In this document: in pieces, positions 897 through 42,210 of the stretch
How the letters are laid out: each line of letters opens with the position of its first letter
How positions within the stretch are numbered: the stretch's first letter is position 1
DNA from: Desulfatibacillum sp.
Lineage (GTDB): Bacteria; Desulfobacterota; Desulfobacteria; Desulfobacterales; Desulfatibacillaceae
Length of the DNA stretch: 44,944 bases
Direction: 5' to 3'
NCBI GenBank assembly: GCA_016342355.1
Contig: JAEINP010000042.1
Coordinates: forward strand, 1-44,944
The notes under the pieces: model-generated
Told to the model about the DNA's origin: nothing
Databases searched by the model: none
What the model saw: only the letters and a program-made list of their open reading frames with translations
Made by a program: the position numbers and the translations under genes

Positions 897-1179
897 AATG
901 AGATCCTTTGTCGCATAGGCAAGTTAGCGTTATCTAAAAGATTACTCTTTAATGGGTAATGATAAAAACCAGACTAATTCATCGATTGGTTAATAACATC
1001 CACACTGAATGAAAACAAGAGAAGATGACGCAACATGTCATAAACGCTGCATGCACCGTTGAAGCGACTGGAATTTGAAAAGAAAGGAACAATGCTTAAG
1101 AATGAATTGCGACAAAGCGGTTTGATTGGCAAACGGATTTAAGGAAACGATTGAAATTTGAAATCCAAGGAAAAGCGCC

Positions 1180-2133
1180 TTAGTTCAGAATATACCTTTG
1201 GGGATTCATGGGTACGCCGTTCAAGTGCACCTCATAGTGGAGATGGGGTCCGGTGCTGCGGCCGGTGTTGCCCACTTCGCCCACTTTTTCACCTCGTTTG
1301 ACCATATCGCCCTTTTTGACTTGGAAAGCGTTAAGATGGGCATACCGGGTAACGATTCCGTGGCCGTGGTCAATCACAATCACCTTGCCAAAGCCGCTCT
1401 TTTTTCCGGCGAAGGAAACCCTGCCATTGGCTGTGGACATAATGGGAGTGCCGAGAGAAGCGCAAAGGTCAAGGCCTTTATGAAATTCCTTAAGCCCGGT
1501 GAACGGGGATGTGCGGTATCCGAATCGGGATGAAAAATACCAATGTTGGTCCTTTTTGACCTTCAGGGGCATAATAGACGGTGTACAGGCCAACACGTCC
1601 TTTTTGTCTTCCAGATAGCCCACCAGGGTGTCCAGGCTGCGTTCGGTGGCCACGGATATGGATTCCAGTTCCTTAACCTGAGTATTCATCTCCCGGACTA
1701 TGTTGGTGGGTTCTGCCTCCGTTAACATTGATGGGTCCAACTCGTCGGGAAAGGATCCGCCAATGGCCAGAAAGGAAGTCGAGTCCTCCGCATCTTCCAG
1801 ATTAGCCAAAAGGCGTATCTTTTTTTCAAATTCATGGAGGCTGGCCAGAGTGTCGTTGAACTTGTTGATGCGTTCGGCGGATTGGGCGAACTGATTCCTC
1901 AGCCGATCAATTTCTTTTTCCTGCATGCTGATAGTGGTTTGGAGACCCGCGGAATCTCCTTTGGAAAGCCTGAGTCTGTGGTTATCCATCCCCAGGTAAA
2001 TTCCGCTTCCGACATTGGCGGTCATTAAGAAAACCACAACCCACAGCATCCATTTGGAAAGGGTGAATTGCTTGGGAGCCGATCCATCCTGCGGAAGTAG
2101 GCATACAGTGTATTTACTTGATTTTGCTGCCAT
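1180..2133 (-). CDS. membrane-anchored LytM/M23 family peptidase
   Basis: A 317-residue protein with a short cytoplasmic N-terminus, one membrane segment (about 27-47), a helical, likely coiled-coil stretch (55-115) and a C-terminal M23 (LytM) domain (about 195-317). Zinc ligands of the family are present: H218 and D222 in HKGLD, and H299 in GPHLHYE; H266 (YAHL) and H297 fit the other catalytic histidines, so the domain looks active. The arrangement (anchor, coiled coil, LytM in the periplasm) resembles septal or cell-shape murein endopeptidases and their regulators. It would cleave peptide cross-links of murein. It is transcribed alone from a well-formed promoter at 2184-2213. Confidence 0.92.
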   Translation of the reverse strand: MAAKSSKYTVCLLPQDGSAPKQFTLSKWMLWVVVFLMTANVGSGIYLGMDNHRLRLSKGDSAGLQTTISMQEKEIDRLRNQFAQSAERINKFNDTLASLHEFEKKIRLLANLEDAEDSTSFLAIGGSFPDELDPSMLTEAEPTNIVREMNTQVKELESISVATERSLDTLVGYLEDKKDVLACTPSIMPLKVKKDQHWYFSSRFGYRTSPFTGLKEFHKGLDLCASLGTPIMSTANGRVSFAGKKSGFGKVIVIDHGHGIVTRYAHLNAFQVKKGDMVKRGEKVGEVGNTGRSTGPHLHYEVHLNGVPMNPQRYILN

Positions 2134-2183
2134 TAATTATTTTCCCGATTGAGCATTTTCGGAATTTTTCAAGGCCTGTTGAC

Positions 2184-2213
2184 ATGATATGCACCAACTT
2201 CAACTTTTGTCAA
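2184..2213 (-). promoter_or_regulatory. sigma-70-type promoter of the LytM gene
   Basis: On the minus strand TTGACA (2208-2213) is followed after 18 bp by TATCAT (2184-2189). The -35 matches consensus at 6 of 6 and the -10 at 5 of 6. The predicted start lies about 45 nt upstream of the LytM ATG. Confidence 0.65.
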
Positions 2214-2340
2214 GGCTTTGGTAAATGTTTCAGGTCCTTATAAGCCAAACTCTCTAAAAAACATTGATGAAACACGAGGGTCAACAGGCATTGGACAGTT
2301 CTGGAAGGATCATCCCCCTTGGTCCGTCTTTTTAAACCCT

Positions 2341-2369
2341 TTGAGTTTTGTTTGTCAAATTGATATATT
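2341..2369 (+). promoter_or_regulatory. putative thiE promoter giving a near-leaderless mRNA
   Basis: TTGAGT (2341-2346), 17 bp, TATATT (2364-2369). Transcription would begin about 2376, at or next to the thiE ATG (2377). No Shine-Dalgarno sequence is visible before that ATG, and I see no TPP-riboswitch consensus upstream. Confidence 0.45.
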
Positions 2370-2376
2370 GCCTTCC

Positions 2377-3018
2377 ATGAAAATGACTATCGATTACAGC
2401 CTTTATTTGGTGACGGACCGCCCCCTATCCCTGGGTAGGGATCTATTGGAAATTATACAAAAAGCCATTGATGGCGGCGTTACCATTGTCCAGCTTCGGG
2501 AAAAAAACTGCGCCACCCGGGAATTTGTGGAGCTTGCCAGAGCCGCCAAAGCAGTCCTGGATCCCAAGAAAATCCCCCTTATTATAAACGACCGCGCTGA
2601 TGTGGCCCTGGCTGCAGGCGCTGCCGGTCTCCACATCGGCCAGACCGACATGGCATACAAAGACGCCAGGAAAATAATGGGGCCGGACGCCATTGTGGGT
2701 CTTTCTGTTGAAAATATTCAACAGGTTGAAGATGCAGGGGCCATTGATCCCGATTATCTGGGAGTGGGTCCGATTTTCGCAACCCAAACCAAACCGGACG
2801 CCGCTCCTCCTATTGGCCTGGACGGCCTGACCAGAATCCGCAAAATTACCAACCGTCCATTGGTAGCCATTGGGGCCATCCATGCGGGAAATGCCCGGGA
2901 TGTCATCCTCGCGGGAGCAGATGGAGTGGCCGTGGTCTCAGCCATATGCTCCCTGCAAGATCCGGCTAAGGCCGCCAAAAATCTTGCACGGGCTATTCGC
3001 CTGGCTCAACAGGGTTAA
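2377..3018 (+). CDS. thiE: thiamine-phosphate synthase
   Basis: A 213-residue TIM-barrel enzyme that joins HMP pyrophosphate and the thiazole phosphate to form thiamine monophosphate in the cytoplasm. Family motifs are present in order: LYLVTDR near the N-terminus, LREKN, LIINDRADVA, GLHIGQTD, VGLSVEN, YLGVGPIFATQTK and the phosphate-binding VAIGAIHAGN near the end. The reading frame is open to 2218, but the extra N-terminal sequence is unlike ThiE, and the family's usual length (about 210) fits ATG 2377 or ATG 2383. No other thiamine genes lie nearby. The signal peptidase gene follows after 55 bp on the same strand and may be cotranscribed. Confidence 0.95.
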   Translation: MKMTIDYSLYLVTDRPLSLGRDLLEIIQKAIDGGVTIVQLREKNCATREFVELARAAKAVLDPKKIPLIINDRADVALAAGAAGLHIGQTDMAYKDARKIMGPDAIVGLSVENIQQVEDAGAIDPDYLGVGPIFATQTKPDAAPPIGLDGLTRIRKITNRPLVAIGAIHAGNARDVILAGADGVAVVSAICSLQDPAKAAKNLARAIRLAQQG

Positions 3019-3073
3019 TCAGGCCCCGGCCTCATTAACCCCAATTCCCACCTTTCAATACAGGAACAGACCC

Positions 3074-3907
3074 ATGCGAGAATTAAAACCCCGCCGTCCT
3101 CTTGTTGCCATTCTTCTTGCCGCCCATATTCCGGGTCTGGGCCAGATGTACAACGGGGAATTACTCATGGGGGCGCTTTTAGTCATTGGCGCTTCCGCTG
3201 GCCTTGCCGGGTTGTTCCAGCTTGGCATCCTTCAAGGAATCAAAGGCCTTGTTTGGGGATCTCTCCTGCTCACTGTTTTTTACGCATATCAGATTGTGGA
3301 TGCGGGCATTGGAGCGTCCAGACGATTTGACTTCATCCTCAAACAGTACAACCACTGGCATTACTATGCCGCTTATACCTTATGTTTTTTACTATGCAGC
3401 GTGTTTGTGTACCCTCCCCTTGCAATACAAAATAATCCGATACAAGTATTTAAAATCCAATCCCAATCCATGGCTCCTGTCCTGTTGAAAGGCGATCACA
3501 TCCTTGCCGATACCCATGCCTTTAGAAAAAATGATCCGAAACGGTGGGATGTCATCCTTTTCGCTGATCCCAAAAAGCCGGACCGGACGTTGCTGAAGCG
3601 GGTAGTTGGTCTGCCCGGTGAAACCCTGGAAATCAGGTTACGGAACCTGATCATCAATGGAAAACCGGTGGCGGACGCACACGCCCAGTATCGGGCGCCT
3701 CTGCCTTCCAACCGGAATGAATTAAAAACGGAGTCCTTTGGGCCGGTTATCATTCCTGATGGAAAGTTTTTTGTCATGGGAGACAATCGGGATAGCAGCA
3801 AGGACAGCCGCCATTTTGGAATGGTTGAAGGGAATGCGATTTCCGCCAGGGCTTGGTTGGTTCTTTTTTCGTGGGATACCAGCCGGGTGGGGATTCCGAT
3901 CCAATAG
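3074..3907 (+). CDS. lepB: signal peptidase I with extra N-terminal membrane domain
   Basis: A 277-residue inner-membrane serine protease that removes Sec and Tat signal peptides on the periplasmic side. Catalytic Ser132 lies in the QSMAP motif and the general-base Lys175 in TLLKRVVGLPGE; the MGDNRDSSKDSR box spans about 235-246. Before the catalytic domain there are about 115 residues with three or four hydrophobic segments, beginning with an IPGLGQMYNGE motif that resembles small TM2-type membrane domains rather than the usual one or two LepB anchors. The frame is open upstream to 2870 through the end of thiE, but the sensible start is ATG 3074, preceded by AGGAACAG. Confidence 0.93.
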   Translation: MRELKPRRPLVAILLAAHIPGLGQMYNGELLMGALLVIGASAGLAGLFQLGILQGIKGLVWGSLLLTVFYAYQIVDAGIGASRRFDFILKQYNHWHYYAAYTLCFLLCSVFVYPPLAIQNNPIQVFKIQSQSMAPVLLKGDHILADTHAFRKNDPKRWDVILFADPKKPDRTLLKRVVGLPGETLEIRLRNLIINGKPVADAHAQYRAPLPSNRNELKTESFGPVIIPDGKFFVMGDNRDSSKDSRHFGMVEGNAISARAWLVLFSWDTSRVGIPIQ

Positions 3908-4037
3908 CGCCCATGGGGCAAAAAGTTAAACAATCACATGAACTATTGCATAATTCATCAATAAAACAAAAGCATTATATAATAATGCCAAGCTCATTCC
4001 GCCCCCCCCTGGTTATCCTCTGGTGCAACCCACATAG

Positions 4038-4071
4038 AAACGGGCTTCCTTATTACAAAGGAAACCCGTTT
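4038..4071. terminator. bidirectional rho-independent terminator
   Basis: An inverted repeat of 14 bp with one mismatch (arms 4038-4051 and 4058-4071, 6-nt loop), with a short T-run on the plus side (TTTT at 4069-4072). It sits between the convergent lepB and GspE/PilB-type genes and can serve both. Confidence 0.7.
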
Positions 4072-4097
4072 TACAATGCCTTGATGGGATAGAGCGC

Positions 4098-6419
4098 TTA
4101 CTTGATGCACACCTTGCGAACCTGCATGAGGTCCAGGCTGCCGCCCAGGATCTTCATGATGCCGTCCTGTTTCAGGGTGGTCATGCCGTCCACGATGGCC
4201 TGGCCGCGCAAGTCCTCCATTTTCGCCTGCATCTGGATGAGCTTTTTCATCTCGTCCGTGCCCAACAACAATTCATGGAGACCCATACGTCCCCGGTAGC
4301 CTGTATTATGGCACCGGTCGCAGCCCTTGGGTTTGCTAATTTTTATGTCTTCTCCATATTTCAGGTCCGGGTATTTGGTGGAAAAATAGTCCATTTTTCC
4401 GTCCCCAAATTCCCGGACAAATTCGTTCCATTCGTCCTCGGAGGGGGTGACTTCCTCTTTGCAGTCCTTGCACAAGGTCCTGGCAAGGCGCTGGGCCAGA
4501 ATGCATAGAATGGCGTCTGCAAAATTGAAGGGGTCCATACCCATGTCCAGAAGACGCGTAATACTTTCAGGGGCCGAGTTGGTATGGAGGGTGGAGAACA
4601 CCAAGTGGCCTGTGAGGGAGGCTTCAATGCCGATACTAGTGGTTTCCTTGTCACGCATTTCACCGACCATAATGACGTCCGGGTCGGCACGAAGAAAGGC
4701 GCGCATGGCCGCGGCAAAGTCAAAGCCAATTTTAGATTGAACCTGAACTTGCCGGAGTCCGGCCTGGGTGATTTCAACAGGATCCTCGGCGGTCCAGATT
4801 TTTGTTTCGGTTTTGTTGATATAACCTAATGCCGAGTGCAGGGTGGTTGTTTTACCCGAACCGGTAGGACCGCAAACAAAGATGATGCCGTAGGGCTGGA
4901 TAATGCAATTCACGAAGTTGGTGAAGTTCCACTCCAAAAGGCCCAGCTTGGCAAGGGGGATGGGCTCTCCGGCAGCCAGGATACGCATGACAACGTCTTC
5001 CATGCCGCCCTGGGTGGGGATGGTGGCCACACGAAGTTCGATGTCCTTGCCGCCGTATTTTTTGAATTTGATCTTGCCGTCCTGGGGTTTGCGCCGTTCT
5101 GCAATGTCCAGGTCCGACATGATCTTGATACGGGAGACCACCGCGTTTCTATACTGGTACGGGATGGTCTGGTACACCGCGCACGCGCCGTCCACGCGAA
5201 TCCGAACCTTGGTGTTTTGCTTGCCAGGATAAGGTTCTATATGAATATCCGAAGCGTTACGGGCATAGGAATCCAGGATGATTTTGTTCACGAGCTGGAC
5301 AACCGCGCTGTCCTCCTCGCCCACACCATGGATTTCATCATCTATCTCCTCTTCTTCAGCCTGGAGTTGCTCCAGGATGGAGTCGATGGAGCCCAGTTCC
5401 TTTTCTTCCGTGGTGAACAGCTTGATGTACAACAGGATGTCTTCCCGGGACGCCACATGGAAAACCAGATCCCGCCCCGGGAACAGGCCCTTTACAATGT
5501 CGATGCGTTGGATATCTGTGGGATTGTCGATGGCGATGATTATCTGGCCGTCTTCCTCCCGCAAAGGCACCCACACATTGTTTTTCATAAAAGGGACTTT
5601 CAGGCCCCTGAGAAGATCGCCGGGAATGGGCACCGTATCGTTGAATTCCTCGTAGGGAACTTTGTAAAACTTGCCCAGAGAGACGCCCACATCCTTTTTG
5701 GGAACCTTGTACTCCCGGATGAGCAGGGTTTCCACAGGCTCCTTGTTGGACCGCGCCTGTGCGATGGCCTTCTCCAGTTCCTTGGAGGTAATGATGCTGT
5801 TGTTGAGCAAAAAATCAAACTTGGTGGGCCGGGCCTTAACCATGCGCCGCTGGTTGTATAGGGCGATACCCAGTGTCTTGGCCAGGGAGGCCGCATCTTG
5901 TTCGTCGTGGGGGGTGAACGGATTGCCGTCCTTGCAATTGATGAGTTGCAACGCTCCCAGCAAAAAGGATTTGAAGGTGATGGGTACGGCCAGGACCTGC
6001 TTTGTCACGAACTTGGCTTTCTTGTCCCACCGGGAGTCAAAACGCAAAGCCGGATCAATAGCTTTCAGCTCGGCTTCGTCATAGACATCCTTAACATTGA
6101 TCACCTTTTGTTTGCTGGCCGCATATCCGGCAATACTCATGTTGGCGATGGGCACACGGATTTCACCGATATCTGCTCCGGATTTGTACCTGGACACCAG
6201 TTCCCGGCGGACTCCGTCCACCACGTAAATGGTGACCCTATCCACATCAAAGATAGTGGTGATGTCGGTTTTGAGATCAATGAGAATTTCATCCAGGTTC
6301 TTGGCCGAATGGATCCTGTTCGTCACTTCCTGGAGCTTGCCGCCTATCTGGGGAGCTGCCTTGAGCGCCGTGACTTCTGATCCGTTGGTAGGCTTCTTGG
6401 TGATTTCTACGACAGCCAT
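4098..6419 (-). CDS. GAF-domain GspE/PilB-type secretion ATPase
   Basis: A 773-residue cytoplasmic hexameric ATPase of the type II secretion/type IV pilus assembly family. Domains in order: GAF (about 25-190), an N-terminal GspE/MshEN-like domain (about 205-350), an acidic linker (350-370) and the ATPase core. Visible motifs are Walker A GPTGSGKTT (about 517-525), Asp-box WTAEDPVE, Walker B VIMVGEMRDKET, His-box TGHLVFSTLHTN, and the zinc-binding pair CKDCKEE / CDRCHNTGYRG typical of PilB/GspE. The N-terminal GAF domain is an unusual addition and suggests control by a small ligand or redox state. Start ATG 6419 is preceded by GGAAGAG; the frame extends nine codons further without a better site. 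No pilin, PilC or PilD gene lies in the window. A small membrane-protein gene is just upstream. Confidence 0.92.
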   Translation of the reverse strand: MAVVEITKKPTNGSEVTALKAAPQIGGKLQEVTNRIHSAKNLDEILIDLKTDITTIFDVDRVTIYVVDGVRRELVSRYKSGADIGEIRVPIANMSIAGYAASKQKVINVKDVYDEAELKAIDPALRFDSRWDKKAKFVTKQVLAVPITFKSFLLGALQLINCKDGNPFTPHDEQDAASLAKTLGIALYNQRRMVKARPTKFDFLLNNSIITSKELEKAIAQARSNKEPVETLLIREYKVPKKDVGVSLGKFYKVPYEEFNDTVPIPGDLLRGLKVPFMKNNVWVPLREEDGQIIIAIDNPTDIQRIDIVKGLFPGRDLVFHVASREDILLYIKLFTTEEKELGSIDSILEQLQAEEEEIDDEIHGVGEEDSAVVQLVNKIILDSYARNASDIHIEPYPGKQNTKVRIRVDGACAVYQTIPYQYRNAVVSRIKIMSDLDIAERRKPQDGKIKFKKYGGKDIELRVATIPTQGGMEDVVMRILAAGEPIPLAKLGLLEWNFTNFVNCIIQPYGIIFVCGPTGSGKTTTLHSALGYINKTETKIWTAEDPVEITQAGLRQVQVQSKIGFDFAAAMRAFLRADPDVIMVGEMRDKETTSIGIEASLTGHLVFSTLHTNSAPESITRLLDMGMDPFNFADAILCILAQRLARTLCKDCKEEVTPSEDEWNEFVREFGDGKMDYFSTKYPDLKYGEDIKISKPKGCDRCHNTGYRGRMGLHELLLGTDEMKKLIQMQAKMEDLRGQAIVDGMTTLKQDGIMKILGGSLDLMQVRKVCIK

Positions 6420-36050: not shown

Positions 36051-37607
36051 ATGCTGTCAAATATCAGACAACTGGAAGGGCGTTTCCCGGGAATGCATCG
36101 GGATTCCCGGGGACGCCATGTCAAAATCGTAGACCGGTATGTCATTCATGGAAACCCCATGGATTTCAGGGACTTATGCGGACGCATTGTGCGTGCTGAC
36201 ACCAAATACCTGGTCCTGGATCTGGACGGAACCTTCCACAAAGGCCTCAATCCGGGGGTGATGCTGGGATGGGACCTGTGCGCCTACCAGGCATACGGCA
36301 TGGATTACCTCGACTCTTTGGACGATAAAGGCCGCAAGGGCTCTTTTGTCCTGAATTGGAGAGACCAGGCAGCCCAGGGCCGCTATGCCAAAAACGGGGC
36401 CAAACAGTGGCTCCTGCCCGGTGTCCTGTACTATTCCCTGGCCCGGATGGGTTGGAAATCCTCGCCAGTCCGCAAAACCCTCCGCCAGTCCCTCGGCCCC
36501 CATGCCATGGACAAGATGCTGGCCCTCATGCGCCTGAGCCTCATGCATCAAATGGCGGGCATTCCCCTGGATGACGTTTATAAGCTGGTGCGGAGCTTGT
36601 GGAAGCGGCATGGAGATCGGCAGGTGATCGAGCCGGACGATATTCAGTGGCTCCGCCACTCCTTTCCCAATCTGAAAATCATTGTGAGCAGCGCCTCTCC
36701 CAGGGCCTTGCTGGAGATCGTCAGGGAGGACTTTCCGGTGCACGATATTTTCGCCACGGAAATTGAAACCCGCAACGGCATAACCAGCTCCCCCCACTGG
36801 ATGCATCGGCTGTTTGGGAACAAACAGCCCAGGCGCATTGCGCCTCCGGCTTCCCTGCGCCAAAACGCCTATTACAATAAAATCAAATATTTATGCTTGA
36901 AGTATCCTGATTTTCCGGACCCGGATGTCCATACGGTTGGCATTACGGACACCAAGCATGGGGAAGACTATCCCTGGTCCGAGTATTTCAAGTGCGTGGC
37001 GGACATAAACAGCCACGATCCCTTTTCTCCCCTGGTGTCCACGGCGTCCCCTCTCGAAGAAATCCATTCCGCCAAAATCATGACCCGGCAGGACAAGGAA
37101 GAAACCCGGGATCAGGAGGACGCCCAGCCATGGGACATGCCCTCCCCCATGGGTCCTTCGGATGTTTTTGAATTCTCCCGCCAGGAACTGGAAAAAACTC
37201 TGGAAGCGGAACTGACCAGGGCCGAGGCCATGGCTAAAGAATGCTATGATGCTGTTCCCGGAGTGTTGCAGGACCTGGACGATTTTTCCCAAGACGTGTT
37301 TGTGACGGCCCAGGCCCTGGAAAACACCGTCATCGGGTACAATGCAAGCCATGGCGAAGACCGCAACAGGTATTTTGACAAAGTCCGGGCTGTTTTAAAG
37401 CAGACCTACCGGTTGAACCGGCATCTGAATCAGGGCATGAATCCGGTTTCCCAAAAATGGTCCGGGATCGAAAAAATCATGGAATCCGCCAGAACCCGAA
37501 TCCATAAAATGGCCGGAAGCGCCATCGAAGACCCAACGCCTCCCGCCTTCACTGATGAAGATTTCACCTTCCCTGTAAAAACGCCCCATAGGCCTTATAG
37601 GCCATGA
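36051..37607 (+). CDS. HAD-superfamily protein with C-terminal helical extension
   Basis: 518 residues. HAD motif I is YLVLDLDGTF (nucleophile D57, acid D59); motif II is the IIVSSASPRALLEIV segment (about 218-232); the motif IV acids lie in VGITDTKHGEDYPW (about 313-326). The long cap between motifs I and II (about 75-210) is helical and basic. After about residue 345 a charged linker leads to a helical, probably coiled C-terminal region (375-500). A phosphatase-like activity is likely; the substrate is unknown. The start could also be ATG 36093. The last 44 bp overlap the convergent M18 gene. The 180 bp before it (35871-36050) have no gene. Confidence 0.78.
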   Translation: MLSNIRQLEGRFPGMHRDSRGRHVKIVDRYVIHGNPMDFRDLCGRIVRADTKYLVLDLDGTFHKGLNPGVMLGWDLCAYQAYGMDYLDSLDDKGRKGSFVLNWRDQAAQGRYAKNGAKQWLLPGVLYYSLARMGWKSSPVRKTLRQSLGPHAMDKMLALMRLSLMHQMAGIPLDDVYKLVRSLWKRHGDRQVIEPDDIQWLRHSFPNLKIIVSSASPRALLEIVREDFPVHDIFATEIETRNGITSSPHWMHRLFGNKQPRRIAPPASLRQNAYYNKIKYLCLKYPDFPDPDVHTVGITDTKHGEDYPWSEYFKCVADINSHDPFSPLVSTASPLEEIHSAKIMTRQDKEETRDQEDAQPWDMPSPMGPSDVFEFSRQELEKTLEAELTRAEAMAKECYDAVPGVLQDLDDFSQDVFVTAQALENTVIGYNASHGEDRNRYFDKVRAVLKQTYRLNRHLNQGMNPVSQKWSGIEKIMESARTRIHKMAGSAIEDPTPPAFTDEDFTFPVKTPHRPYRP

Positions 37608-38988
37608 AGATATCGGCTTTGGAGGCAATCTCAAAGGGCGAATGCATTCCCAGGATAGCCGGGCCGCAGTCGACCACGTCCATGCCATGGGTCGCCAAAA
37701 ACTTGGCGATGGTGCCGCCGCCGCCTTCGTCCACCTTGCCCAATTGGCCGATTTGCCAGACGATTTTATTGGCCTCGAAAATTCCGCGCACATAGCCCAG
37801 GTGTTCGGCGTTGGCGTCGGAGGCCCCGGACTTCCCTGCCGACCCCGTGTATTTGGTCATGCACATGCCATATCCCAGCTTGGCGGCGTTGTTCTTTTCG
37901 TGGACCGACTGGTAATCCGGGTCCAGGGCCGGAGCCACATCGCCGGACAGGCCCTTGGACGCCATGAGTGTGGCTGTCAGGTCTCGTGACGAAGCCCCCT
38001 GCCCCGCCAGTTTTAGCAGATCGGAAATAAAAGATTCCAAAAATCGGGATTTGGCGCCGGTATTACCCTCGCTGCCGATTTCCTCCTTGTCCGCCAAAAA
38101 AACCACGCTGGTGAATTCGGGCTTGCTCTTGGCGTCCAGCAATGCGCGAACCGCGCAATAGGAGCATACCCGGTCGTCCTGGCCATAGGCTCCGATCAGG
38201 CTGCGATCCAGCCCCACATCCCGGGCCTGGCCTGCGGGAACCGCCTCGATTTCAGCCGTGAGGAAATCCTCTTCCACCAGCCCGTATTTCTCGTGGAGCA
38301 GATTCATGGCCATGAGCTTGAAACGGTCCGGGGTTTTCTCCGGCCCCAGGGGAAGGCTGCCCAAAAGGATATTGAGCTTTTCCCCCTCAAAGGCGATAGC
38401 CAGGGTCTTGCCTGCCTGGATTTTGCGGGCCAGGTGGGGTAACAGGTCCAGGACGGTGAAAACAGGATCGCCGGGGTCTTCCCCCAGGCGGATATCAATG
38501 GATTTGCCGTCCTTGTCCACAGCCACCCCGTGGAGGGCAAGAGGCCGGGCAAACCACTGGTGCTTGCGAACTCCGCCGTAATAGTGGGTCTTGAAAAAGG
38601 CCATGTCTGTTTCTTCATACAGGGGGTTGGCCTTCAGATCCAGGCGGGGAGAATCCACATGGGAGGCCACAATATGCACCCCTTCTGTCACAGGGCGGAC
38701 TCCCAGACGAGCCAGGGCGATGCATTTGTTTTTCCAGGTGCGAAAAACCAGGCCGTTTTCTCCTGCTTCATCCACGGGAAAAAAACCGGTCTTCCGGGCC
38801 AGTTGTTCCACCGTGGCCACGGCCCTGCGTTCGGTCTTGGAATTATCCAGGAATGTTTTGTATTCATCCCCAAACTTCATGGCCTTATTCCGGTCCGCCT
38901 TGGTCAACTCATCCCAGACCAGTTTGGACTTGCGCATGAGTTTCTTGGATAAATCCTGGGCCTGCTTTTTGGTCATATCTCCGGCCAT
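37564..38988 (-). CDS. M18-family aminopeptidase
   Basis: A 474-residue cytoplasmic zinc metallo-aminopeptidase. The binuclear-metal motifs are present: SHVDSPRLDLK (His and Asp), GAYGQDDRVCSY, VFLADKEEIGSEGNTG (Glu pair) and the C-terminal LGMHSPFE. Family members remove N-terminal residues, often acidic ones, from peptides, which would complement peptide import. AGGAG precedes the ATG. It is the last gene of the tex-dtd-sodN run; the 46 bp between sodN and this gene hold no terminator. Confidence 0.93.
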   Translation of the reverse strand: MAGDMTKKQAQDLSKKLMRKSKLVWDELTKADRNKAMKFGDEYKTFLDNSKTERRAVATVEQLARKTGFFPVDEAGENGLVFRTWKNKCIALARLGVRPVTEGVHIVASHVDSPRLDLKANPLYEETDMAFFKTHYYGGVRKHQWFARPLALHGVAVDKDGKSIDIRLGEDPGDPVFTVLDLLPHLARKIQAGKTLAIAFEGEKLNILLGSLPLGPEKTPDRFKLMAMNLLHEKYGLVEEDFLTAEIEAVPAGQARDVGLDRSLIGAYGQDDRVCSYCAVRALLDAKSKPEFTSVVFLADKEEIGSEGNTGAKSRFLESFISDLLKLAGQGASSRDLTATLMASKGLSGDVAPALDPDYQSVHEKNNAAKLGYGMCMTKYTGSAGKSGASDANAEHLGYVRGIFEANKIVWQIGQLGKVDEGGGGTIAKFLATHGMDVVDCGPAILGMHSPFEIASKADIFMAYKAYGAFLQGR

Positions 38989-39034: not shown

Positions 39035-39475
39035 TTATTTGGCAAAATATAAATCCGAAAACTGTTTGACTACATCCCTCAGGTTGTTCACATAGCCCAG
39101 GTCGGTGGTTTGCTTGCAGTTCATGGCGTACACCAGCATTTTGTGCAACAGGGCGATCTTCTTATCGTAGTCCGGGGCGTCCAGCTTGATCCTTTGAGTC
39201 ATGAAATACTGGCTGACGATTTCCTGGAACTTGTTGGCGTGATCCTCTTTATTGGTGATCCAACGCACCAACTGGTTGTAGTGGGGGTGGTCCGCCTTTT
39301 CCAGTTCTATGATCTGCTTCATGGATTTTTCAATGGTGTCGATGTGCTCGTTGAGCATGCTGATGCGCATTTGGTCATCGTAAATGCCGCAGGGGATTTC
39401 GCAATGGGCATAAGCGTTTGCAGACAATCCAAGGACTGCCAGGATAACCAAAATTCCGGTCCATGTCTTTTTCAT
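39035..39475 (-). CDS. sodN: nickel superoxide dismutase with Sec signal peptide
   Basis: A 146-residue precursor. Residues 1-23 form a Sec signal peptide (MKK, hydrophobic core ILVILAVLGL, AYA cleavage site). The next residues are HCEIPCGIYD, the Ni-hook motif H1-C2-x-x-P5-C6-G7-x-Y9-D10 of Ni-SOD, so cleavage would create exactly the His1 N-terminus needed to bind nickel. The remaining 113 residues are helical, as in the Ni-SOD four-helix bundle, with QLVRWITNKEDHANKF and SQYFMTQRIKL. It would dismutate superoxide in the periplasm. Other Ni-SODs need the SodX protease; none is encoded here. AAGGAGG lies 6 nt before ATG 39475; it starts 10 bp after dtd. Confidence 0.92.
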   Translation of the reverse strand: MKKTWTGILVILAVLGLSANAYAHCEIPCGIYDDQMRISMLNEHIDTIEKSMKQIIELEKADHPHYNQLVRWITNKEDHANKFQEIVSQYFMTQRIKLDAPDYDKKIALLHKMLVYAMNCKQTTDLGYVNNLRDVVKQFSDLYFAK

Positions 39476-39485
39476 GCCATCCTCC

Positions 39486-39926
39486 TTATTTGCTTTCCAC
39501 AATCAAGGTTACAGGGCCCTGATTCACCAGGGCGACATCCATCATGGCCCCAAATTTGCCGGTGGCTATTTTGATGCCCAACATATCCACGGCGCTCACA
39601 AATTCCTCGTAGAGCTTTTCCGCCAGTTCCGGTGGCGCCGCGCTAATAAAGGAAGGCCTTCTTCCTTTGCGACAATCCCCGTAGAGAGTGAATTGGGAAA
39701 CCACCAGCATTTCGCCTTGAATTTCGTCCAGGGAGCGGTTCATCTTGCCAGCATCATCTTCAAATATTCGAAGACCGACAATTTTTTTTGCAAGAAACTC
39801 CACTTCCTTGGAGGTGTCTTCCGGGGCTACCCCCAAAAGCACCAAAAGGCCCGATTCAATGGCCCCCACCACTTGCCCGTCCACTGTAACACTGGATTTG
39901 CCTACCCGCTGCACCACTGCCCGCAT
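39486..39926 (-). CDS. dtd: D-aminoacyl-tRNA deacylase
   Basis: 146 residues, the standard family length. The enzyme hydrolyses D-Tyr-tRNA and other mischarged tRNAs in the cytoplasm. Both active-site motifs are present: SQFTLYGD (SQxT) and NQGPVT (GPxT), and the N-terminus MRAVVQRV is typical. It lies 34 bp after tex and 10 bp before sodN on the same strand. Confidence 0.96.
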
Positions 39927-39960: not shown

Positions 39961-42210
39961 TTATTTTTTCAATTTGCCCAAGTTGGCAAAGGGATTGTTA
40001 AAGGGCGCGTCTTCCTTTTTTTGCTGGGGAGGACGGCCGCCGCCCTTGGGTCCTTTCTGAAAATCCCTTTCATCGATCTTCTTTTTCATGGAAAGGGCTA
40101 TCCGCTTCCTGTCCAGGTCGATTTCCAGCACCCGAACTGTAACCCTTTGTTGTACTTTTACCACGTCAGCCGCGTTCTTGACAAAATTATCGGACAACTG
40201 GCTCACGTGCACCAATCCGTCCTGATGCACCCCCACGTCCACAAAGGCTCCGAAGTTGGTCACGTTGGTGACGATGCCCGGCAGTTCCATGCCGATTTCC
40301 AGGTCCTTCATTTCCATGACGTCCTTGGAAAACGAAAAGGCTTCCAGGGCCTGCCTGGGGTCCCGGCCCGGTTTGGCAAGTTCGGCCATAATGTCTGTGA
40401 GGGTGGGCAGGCCCAGTTTGTCGGTCACATATTTGTTCAACTCGATTTTTTTCCGCAGGGTTTCATCCCCCATGAGATGGGGAATTTCGCACCCTATGTC
40501 CTTAGCCATGGACTCCACCACATGATAGGTTTCCGGGTGAACGGCGCTGCTGTCCAGGGGATTGTCGGCGTCGGGAATCCTTAAAAAACCCGCTGCCTGT
40601 TCAAAGGCCTTGGGGCCAAGGCGGGGGATTTTTTTCAAGGCGTCCCGGGAGCGAAACGGGCCGTTTTCCGTCCTGAAATCCACAATCCGCTGGGCCAGTC
40701 GGGAGCCCAGGCCGGAGACATAGCTGAGCAACTGGGGGCTGGCCATATTTACATCCACGCCCACGTTGTTCACGCAACTGATCACCACATCGTCTAATGT
40801 ATCCTTGAGTTTGATCTGATCCACATCGTGCTGATACTGGCCCACGCCAATGGACTTGGGATCGATCTTCACCAGTTCGGCCAGGGGGTCCATGAGCCTG
40901 CGGCCAATGGAAACCGCCCCGCGCACGGTTACGTCCTGGTCGGGAAATTCTTTTCTGGCCACATCCGAGGCCGAATAAATGGAAGCCCCGCTTTCATCCA
41001 CCGAAAGCACCATGACCTCCACAGGCAGATTGCAGCGCCTTACGAACGCCTCGGTCTCCCGGCCTGCGGTGCCGTTTCCGATGGCGATAGCCTCGATCTG
41101 GTGCTGTCTCACGAGATTTTTAAGGGTTTCTTCCGCTTCCATCACCTGGCGGTCCGAAGAATGGGGAAAAATGGCGGTATAGTGGAGCAAAGTCCCCTGA
41201 CGATCCAGGGCGACCACCTTGCAGCCTGTCCGAAAACCCGGGTCCAGGGCAAGCACCCGTTTGCGGCCCAGGGGAGGCGCCAAAAGAAGATGCCGGAGGT
41301 TGTCGGCGAAAACCCTGACCGCCTCTTCGTCGGCCCTTTCCTTGGAAGCCAAACGGACTTCGGTTTCCATGGCACGGAACAGGAGGCGCTTGTAGCCATC
41401 GGCGATGGCCAGCTTCACCTGCTGGGAAGCGGGGGAATCGCCCTTAAGATAATACTGATGAATGATATCCAGGGCTTGGTCATCCTCCACCACCACTTCC
41501 AGGTTGAGCATTTCCTCGTTTTCGCCCCGGCGCATGGCTAAAATCCGGTGGGAAGGGGCTTTGGCTGCGGACTCTTCCCACTGGAAATAGTCCTTGAACT
41601 TGGCCCCAAGTTCCTCTTTTCCGGCTACCATGGTGCTTCGGAACAAGGCGGTCTTAAAAAAGAAATCACGCATGGAGGCGCGGACCTGGGTGTCTTCACT
41701 CACCATTTCCGCAATGATATCCCGGGCGCCGGCCACAGCGTCCTCGGCGCTTTCCACGCCATTTTCCGGGTCCACATGGTTGGCTGCCAGAGCCATGGGG
41801 TCGATGCTCTCATCCTGTTCCAATATAACCAGAGCCAGGGGCTCCAGGCCCTTTTCCCGAGCGATGGTGGCCTTGGTTCTGCGCTTGGGCCGGTACGGAA
41901 GATATATATCCTCCAGTTCGGACATGGTTTGGGCGGCCGTGACTTGATCCTTGAGTTCCTCGGTGAGGTGGCCGTTTTTTTCCAAAGAACGCAAAATGGT
42001 TTCCCTGCGGTCGTCCATGGCCGCCAGTTGGGCCAGCCTGTCCCGAATGGCTGTGATCTCCACCTCATCCAGACTGCCTGTGGCCTCCTTTCGGTACCGG
42101 GAGATAAAAGGCACGGTAGCGCCTTCGGAAAGCAACAGGGCCGTGGCTTCCACCGACCTTCCGGGAATGGCCAATTCTGAGGCGACAATCACAACATGCT
42201 CTGGGTTCAT
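39961..42210 (-). CDS. tex: Tex family transcription accessory / RNA-binding protein
   Basis: 749 residues. The N-terminal Tex region ([28 protein letters not shown]), a YqgF/RNase H-like domain ([18 protein letters not shown] ... [12 protein letters not shown]), helix-hairpin-helix repeats ([36 protein letters not shown]) and a C-terminal S1 domain (about 645-715, [25 protein letters not shown]) appear in order. Tex binds nucleic acids and affects transcription and translation. The tail is Lys/Gly/Pro rich. AAGGA precedes the ATG, and a promoter lies at 42260-42288. Confidence 0.95.

Follow-up and report, generated by a model that had tools for sequence, protein, structure and literature searches.

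A nickel superoxide dismutase whose signal peptide ends directly before its predicted nickel-binding histidine, and the apparently SodX-free clade to which it belongs

Nickel superoxide dismutases (Ni-SODs) hold their metal in an N-terminal hook with His1, Cys2, and Cys6 as ligands, and in the Streptomyces enzyme the amine of His1 is one of the groups that bind nickel. The usual account of Ni-SOD maturation has the protease SodX remove a propeptide. The window analyzed here, a stretch of 44,944 nucleotides from a Desulfatibacillum genome, encodes a Ni-SOD with an apparent signal peptide in place of the short propeptide of classical systems, and raises the question of which enzyme exposes His1 and on which side of the inner membrane nickel is bound. 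We consider it very likely that the protein is exported, that a signal peptidase I cut after the motif A-Y-A exposes His1, that nickel is loaded in the periplasm, and that SodX takes no part.

The gene and its product

The sodN gene encodes 146 residues on the minus strand (positions 39475 to 39035). Codons 1 to 24 occupy exactly 39404 to 39475 and specify MKKTWTGILVILAVLGLSANAYA followed by His, such that the product begins MKKTWTGILVILAVLGLSANAYA|HCEIPCGIYDD and its leader ends in AYA; the earlier note had placed the AYA of a signal peptide directly before HCEIPCGIYD, and the translation confirms this. Signal peptides were judged from hydrophobicity and the −3/−1 rule, and the kinds of leader were sorted by eye. 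Residues 1 to 23 (39407 to 39475, minus strand) have the basic start, hydrophobic core, and small residues at −3 and −1 of a Sec signal peptide of the signal peptidase I type: a lysine pair is followed by a strongly hydrophobic stretch (best 9-residue Kyte-Doolittle mean, 3.36), with alanine at both −3 and −1. The leader is thus unlike the classical short propeptide, which lacks a signal-peptide core. The codon of His24 (39404 to 39406, minus strand) would specify His1 of the mature protein, a nickel ligand, on the evidence of an alignment in which it coincides with His1 of PDB entries 1t6q and 1q0d. The mature domain of 123 residues (39038 to 39406, minus strand) comprises the nickel hook HCEIPCGIY and then a predicted four-helix bundle.

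A Shine-Dalgarno-like AAGGAGG (39487 to 39481, minus strand) lies five bases 5′ of the sodN ATG at 39475 and overlaps the stop codon of dtd, the gene for D-aminoacyl-tRNA deacylase (39486 to 39926, minus strand), which is 10 bases upstream of sodN. From this overlap sodN is probably transcribed with dtd, and the gene spacing likewise makes cotranscription likely. The gene of a 749-residue S1-domain protein upstream of dtd (39961 to 42210), which we take to be tex, and that of an M18 family aminopeptidase downstream of sodN (37564 to 38988, minus strand) are perhaps part of the same transcript. Comparison of the locus and of neighbor clusters gave no sign of a role in Ni-SOD maturation for either dtd or the M18 aminopeptidase. 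On the plus strand, an open reading frame (ORF) of 518 residues (36051 to 37607) converges on the M18 aminopeptidase ORF and shares 44 bases with its end; the match of the 518-residue product to a HAD hydrolase is weak (21.3 bits, below the cut-off).

The product scores 120.9 bits with the Pfam family Sod_Ni (PF09055; curated cut-off, 25), and it keeps His1, Cys2, and Cys6 of the hook as well as Tyr9. His24 is invariant in 45 aligned sequences, the window protein and 44 relatives. An AlphaFold2 model of the mature protein has a mean pLDDT of 91.9, with most of the hook below 50, and folds as a four-helix bundle; among solved structures, both Foldseek and VIA-align rank Ni-SODs first. The first 14 Foldseek ranks are all Ni-SODs, with query TM-scores of 0.71 to 0.79 and a best E value of 0.009, none being below 0.001. 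The top seven VIA-align rows are also all Ni-SODs (Z of 14.7 to 15.2), with unrelated rows starting at 13.0, although Z alone is treacherous for helical bundles. We assign the Ni-SOD fold because of the hook and of a profile match to these same Ni-SOD chains (E of 0.0012). By family and predicted fold, then, the sodN product is a Ni-SOD, presumably an active one.

Leader types and the register of cleavage

Scanning the genome collection gave 49 loci with relatives, and further ones came from the window's own phylum (395 genomes, 20 with Sod_Ni), from Planctomycetota (246 genomes, 43 with Sod_Ni), and from two records of the plasmid collection. Collapsing identical mature sequences gave 112 distinct Ni-SODs, 90 with a signal peptide ending directly before His1, 16 with a short and weakly hydrophobic propeptide, and six in which a linker separates the signal peptide from His1, the six having been set apart by eye before the 90 were counted. 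Outside the 112 stand L034, L143, and L144 (cut or beyond the length filter, by eye of the signal-peptide type), L058 (no hook found), the repeats L066 and L109 (identical to L013 and L057, respectively), and SodX loci that repeat a sodN already counted. Residue 1 is His in all 112, at a position that the search pattern left free; the pattern demanded C2, P5, C6, and an aromatic residue at 9, which are therefore not independent evidence. Tyr9 is found in 84 of the 90 signal-peptide proteins, with Phe in the rest, and position 3 is E or Q in that type compared to D in all 16 propeptide types.

Sod_Ni occurs in two of the nine genomes of the window's own family, and both belong to the window's genus. 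A mobile context was rejected: the phage collection gave no match, and the one matching record in the plasmid collection is an Ilyobacter replicon of 962 kb. At least three histidines fall among the last 15 residues of 32 of the 90 signal-peptide proteins (L027, L037, and L044, for example), where they may form nickel-binding tails.

The window protein might be an exported metal binder with the Sod_Ni fold whose main role is something other than superoxide dismutation, for instance the storage of nickel in the periplasm. Such a role would suit the E or Q at position 3, the histidine-rich C termini of those 32 relatives, the 12 to 20% identity of the window protein to solved Ni-SODs, and its score of 43.8 bits with the NCBI equivalog model for sodN (TIGR02753), far under the cut-off of 90. 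The window protein itself, however, has no histidine-rich C-terminal tail, and it retains His1, Cys2, Cys6, and Tyr9. It is also the product of the only SOD-type gene found in its genome: searches at an E value of ≤0.001 that did find matches in control genomes detected no Fe/Mn-SOD, Cu/Zn-SOD, or desulfoferrodoxin-type superoxide reductase there, and the exported Ni-SOD may be the genome's only superoxide-removing enzyme of these kinds. We regard the nickel store as unlikely and take the protein to be a Ni-SOD in what follows.

The position of the cut can be read from the relatives. A −3/−1 motif stands exactly before His in 89 of the 90 signal-peptide proteins, and when shifted by up to six residues in either direction from the bond preceding His it fits in no more than 40 of the 90; the sequences are related, and the counts are accordingly not independent trials, while the leaders otherwise vary freely. 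Residue −1 is A, G, or S in 89 of the 90 (T in the remaining one), compared with 19 at −2 and 13 at −4, and residue −3 is small or aliphatic in every one. The register is thus kept exactly at His1, in agreement with the cleavage between residues 23 and 24 that the earlier note had predicted. The hydrophobic cores likewise set the leaders apart, with a median of 2.93 for signal peptides versus 0.79 for propeptides, although the two ranges touch (L044 at 1.77 and L094 at 1.89). Propeptides, too, end in a recognizable motif, with A at −1 and A or V at −3 in 16 of 16.

Two other export routes were considered and rejected. The window protein contains no twin-arginine pair, and a pattern search among the 90 returned a single twin-arginine-like motif (L040). 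Processing as a lipoprotein by signal peptidase II would need a lipobox, with a small residue directly before Cys, and here that residue is His.

A site two residues earlier, ANA|Y, also fits the −3/−1 rule in the window protein, and signal peptidase could cut there, at ANA|YAH, leaving a further peptidase to remove Tyr-Ala before nickel binds; an M18 aminopeptidase gene does follow sodN. Only 38 of the 90 signal-peptide proteins satisfy the rule at this position, compared with 89 at His, and it is because of this register that we favor His24 as the mature start. M18 aminopeptidases are, moreover, cytoplasmic enzymes. ORFs lying within 1.5 to 3 kb on either side of sodN in the signal-peptide and linker types were also clustered, and the 25 largest of the resulting clusters were inspected. 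The largest is Ni-SOD itself (101 loci), and clusters of 73, 24, and 7 loci were taken as shadow frames over sodN. The largest remaining cluster is a CBS-domain protein at eight loci (two in Desulfobacteraceae and six in planctomycetes), followed by response regulators at five and a universal-stress-like protein at four, the rest being lineage specific or shadows. No general partner gene, and no peptidase gene, recurs beside sodN in these clusters; the M18 aminopeptidase was rejected as a maturation enzyme on this ground, and we hold the two-step route to be improbable.

A single signal peptidase cut that exposes His1 would suit the leaders of 90 of the 112 Ni-SODs; the rule is not universal. 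The six linker types (L056, L057, L135, L136, L139, and L140) are all from Planctomycetota and fall within the exported clade in at least two places. By eye, about 12 to 25 residues separate the likely signal peptidase site from His (about 3 in L136), and the residue directly before His is P, R, L, or W. No SodX was found at threshold in the five Planctomycetota genomes concerned (1e-10) or in G447 (1e-6). These proteins may need a second cut, may work differently, or may be dead.

SodX and the two clades

SodX was sought with the model TIGR02754 (curated cut-off, 63.25 bits), at E values of ≤1 in the window's own genome, 1e-12 in its phylum, 1e-6 in the genomes of relatives, and 1e-10 in Planctomycetota, and its absence below means that nothing exceeded the stated threshold. 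The window genome (5.26 Mb, completeness 100) holds no SodX over the cut-off, either adjoining sodN or elsewhere, the best match in this search reaching 26.4 bits, as expected from the earlier note. Its seven matches correspond to five proteins that by eye are signal peptidase I-like in three cases (L001, L003, and L004), an HTH-S24 regulator in one (L002), and unrelated in one (L007); a separate annotation of the window confirms L003 as signal peptidase I. The lepB-like signal peptidase I gene in the window (2870 to 3907, plus strand) is the candidate processing enzyme, which supports the view that an ordinary signal peptidase would expose His1.

The same pattern extends to the relatives. The congener G001 has no SodX at 1e-12, and none of the 395 genomes of the phylum has one over the curated cut-off. 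The phylum's only match at 1e-12, in G037 (54.3 bits, under the cut-off), lies about 135 bases downstream of a sodN that reads MYKLIKALDSKFGFDQAKA|HCDVPC, the sample's only propeptide type in the phylum; counted by genome, SodX accompanies one of one propeptide type (under the cut-off) and none of 19 signal-peptide types. The 49 genomes of relatives likewise hold no SodX over the cut-off. They show six weak places in five genomes, the best of which (47.8 bits, in G443) is beside a second, propeptide-type sodN; the other five, read by eye, score 30 to 41 bits, and one of them (40.6 bits) is also in G443. The four signal-peptide genomes besides G443 have weak S26-like matches of 30 to 40 bits. 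Among Planctomycetota, 13 genomes have a propeptide copy and 11 of these gave a SodX match (nine over the cut-off), compared with 0 of 30 that carry only signal-peptide or linker types (Fisher p of 1.4e-8, uncorrected for kinship). Two genomes with no sodN (G460 and G469) gave 44 and 46 bits for proteins that have membrane segments and resemble ordinary signal peptidases; the match in G549, at 45.7 bits, is no stronger and was counted since it is beside sodN.

Four genomes (G443, G549, G618, and G640) carry both kinds of sodN, and in all four the SodX match is beside the propeptide copy, two of these matches being under the cut-off. SodX was matched for 13 of the 16 propeptide types; in one of the genomes searched, G521, the SodX match is interrupted by a stop codon and lies on a different contig from sodN. 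The three types with no matched SodX are those of Nonomuraea, G551, and G493. In G551 the sodN match is 86 bases from the contig end. Nonomuraea (L078) has no SodX within 4 kb, and a tblastn search of the plasmid collection with a planctomycete SodX, a weak probe, returned five records, none from Nonomuraea, with a best E value of 0.04. The gene that follows the propeptide-type sodN in G493 (L095; ORF within 1586 to 2458, plus strand) encodes a peptidase that has a membrane segment and scores 54.0 bits as signal peptidase I (cut-off, 47) and 35.1 bits as SodX (cut-off, 63.25). Its best 15-residue hydrophobicity mean is 2.28, compared with 0.43 to 1.74 in 11 SodX frames at propeptide loci, which have no strong membrane segment.

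SodX thus tracks the propeptide types, and none was found over threshold where signal-peptide types occur alone, in line with the claim that the latter need no sodX. It is very improbable that a SodX-like protease missed by the model cleaves the leader in the cytoplasm and that the Ni-SOD stays inside, as the weak S26/S24-like matches (26.4 bits at best in the own genome and 30 to 48 in relatives) might suggest, since the own-genome matches are signal peptidase I-like proteins, an HTH-S24 regulator, and an unrelated protein, the leaders are well above propeptides in median hydrophobicity, and the same search does detect SodX in propeptide-type genomes. A large clade with signal-peptide leaders appears, from these genome comparisons, to do without a dedicated maturation protease.

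In a tree of the mature domains, with the leaders left out, a branch supported at 100/99 separates all 16 propeptide types from the rest, and Ni-SODs appear to split into two clades by leader and by association with SodX. The two child branches of the root measure 2.36 and 2.47 changes per column; the tree has few columns, a bootstrap that is not quite settled, and a long branch for L078, and its midpoint rooting does not give the relative age of the clades. The split amounts to one deep branch, for which kinship is controlled only by the four genomes holding both kinds. By record titles, the exported clade spans Thermodesulfobacteriota, Nitrospirota, Acidobacteriota, Bacteroidota, Calditrichota, Lentisphaerota, Kiritimatiellota, Gemmatimonadota, Planctomycetota, Fusobacteriota, and several candidate phyla, and its members come mostly from metagenome-assembled genomes. 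The window gene is an ordinary member of this widespread, poorly described, exported, and apparently SodX-free clade.

Nickel loading outside the cytoplasm and known systems

Sec translocates unfolded chains, and in the scheme that we propose this pathway would carry the Ni-SOD precursor unfolded across the inner membrane. The housekeeping signal peptidase I would then cut after AYA, and this single cut would both release the protein and free His1, whose amine and side chain would bind nickel on the outer side of the membrane, no SodX being used. If the cut is at His24, nickel loading would take place outside the cytoplasm because the amine ligand is absent until the cut is made at the outer face. 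Cleavage at A23|H24, Sec export, periplasmic loading, and activity are inferred from the sequence and its relatives.

A possible source of nickel is found elsewhere in the genome, where an operon for a nickel/cobalt ECF importer (L146, contig C81:55500-64500, positions 1030 to 4796, minus strand) contains CbiM-, CbiQ-, ATPase-, and NikL-like genes and one for a DUF4198 protein. The leaders of the DUF4198 and NikL-like proteins also read as signal peptides ending just before His (GPAAA|HFGM and GPSLA|HKVN, respectively). A DUF4198 protein has been reported to bind nickel with a Kd of 18 nM (PMC12537917). That the DUF4198 or the NikL-like protein hands nickel to Ni-SOD is speculation on our part.

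SodX and signal peptidase I are S26 kin, and each is recognized to some degree by the model of the other: against the SodX model the window's signal peptidase I reaches 38.8 bits, and against that for signal peptidase I the G037 SodX reaches 42.2 bits, both under the respective cut-offs. Taken with the A-x-A or V-x-A ends of all 16 propeptides, these mutual matches suggest that the two clades, in separate compartments, share one kind of cut and one kind of protease. A broader conjecture, which we put forward tentatively and think somewhat doubtful, is that Ni-SODs lead two compartment-specific lives, with a single protease family serving both. The exported clade would be old and would rely on signal peptidase I and periplasmic loading, perhaps by way of DUF4198 or NikL-like proteins, and a cytoplasmic clade would rely on SodX, an anchorless signal peptidase acting on a coreless signal peptide, with G493 as an intermediate.

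The window Ni-SOD resembles classical SodN (PDB entries 1q0d and 1t6u), the partner of SodX, in its nickel hook, its four-helix fold, and a His1 exposed after an A-x-A-like motif. It differs in having a signal peptide for a leader, in a genome with no SodX over the cut-off, in its separate clade, in its score below the NCBI sodN cut-off, and in its clade's E or Q at position 3. LPMO, CopC, and DUF4198 proteins, which are copper or nickel carriers or oxygenases, belong to other protein families; in these secreted proteins, as is likely here, signal peptidase exposes a metal-binding N-terminal His (PMC12537917). The closest precedent is the Ni-SOD of Roseiconus lacunae, a Pfam 09055 protein whose signal peptide also ends directly before His; a search that used this signal peptide with the His appended recovered many Ni-SODs (PMC12537917). 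The combination of signal peptide and His1 in a Ni-SOD is therefore already in print, in a 2025 paper, and is not peculiar to the window. As far as the available text of that paper goes, the Roseiconus protein is a search tool, and SodX, a separate clade, and maturation lie outside its discussion. In the open-licence literature we found no text that links signal peptides, the absence of SodX, and a separate clade, and earlier descriptions of Ni-SODs with signal peptides are possible elsewhere.

Cyanobacterial Ni-SOD has been called cytoplasmic, and it has been proposed that the lack of sodX in ten cyanobacterial strains may leave their Ni-SOD unusable (PMC8346466). An apparently SodX-free clade breaks this inference from missing sodX to unusable Ni-SOD wherever the leader is a signal peptide, and an exported one would place nickel metallation outside the cytoplasm. 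Periplasmic supply and insertion of nickel, and whether the absence of sodX predicts loss of function, can now be tested.

The two clades also differ in how the NCBI sodN model treats them. In a trial sample, TIGR02753 (cut-off, 90) gave four propeptide types 151 to 188 bits and gave four signal-peptide types and one linker type 32 to 47 bits; with the window protein counted, the model accepted all four propeptide types, and all six proteins with a signal peptide or a linker fell below its cut-off. The Ilyobacter member of the exported clade is nonetheless named "superoxide dismutase [Ni]" in RefSeq.
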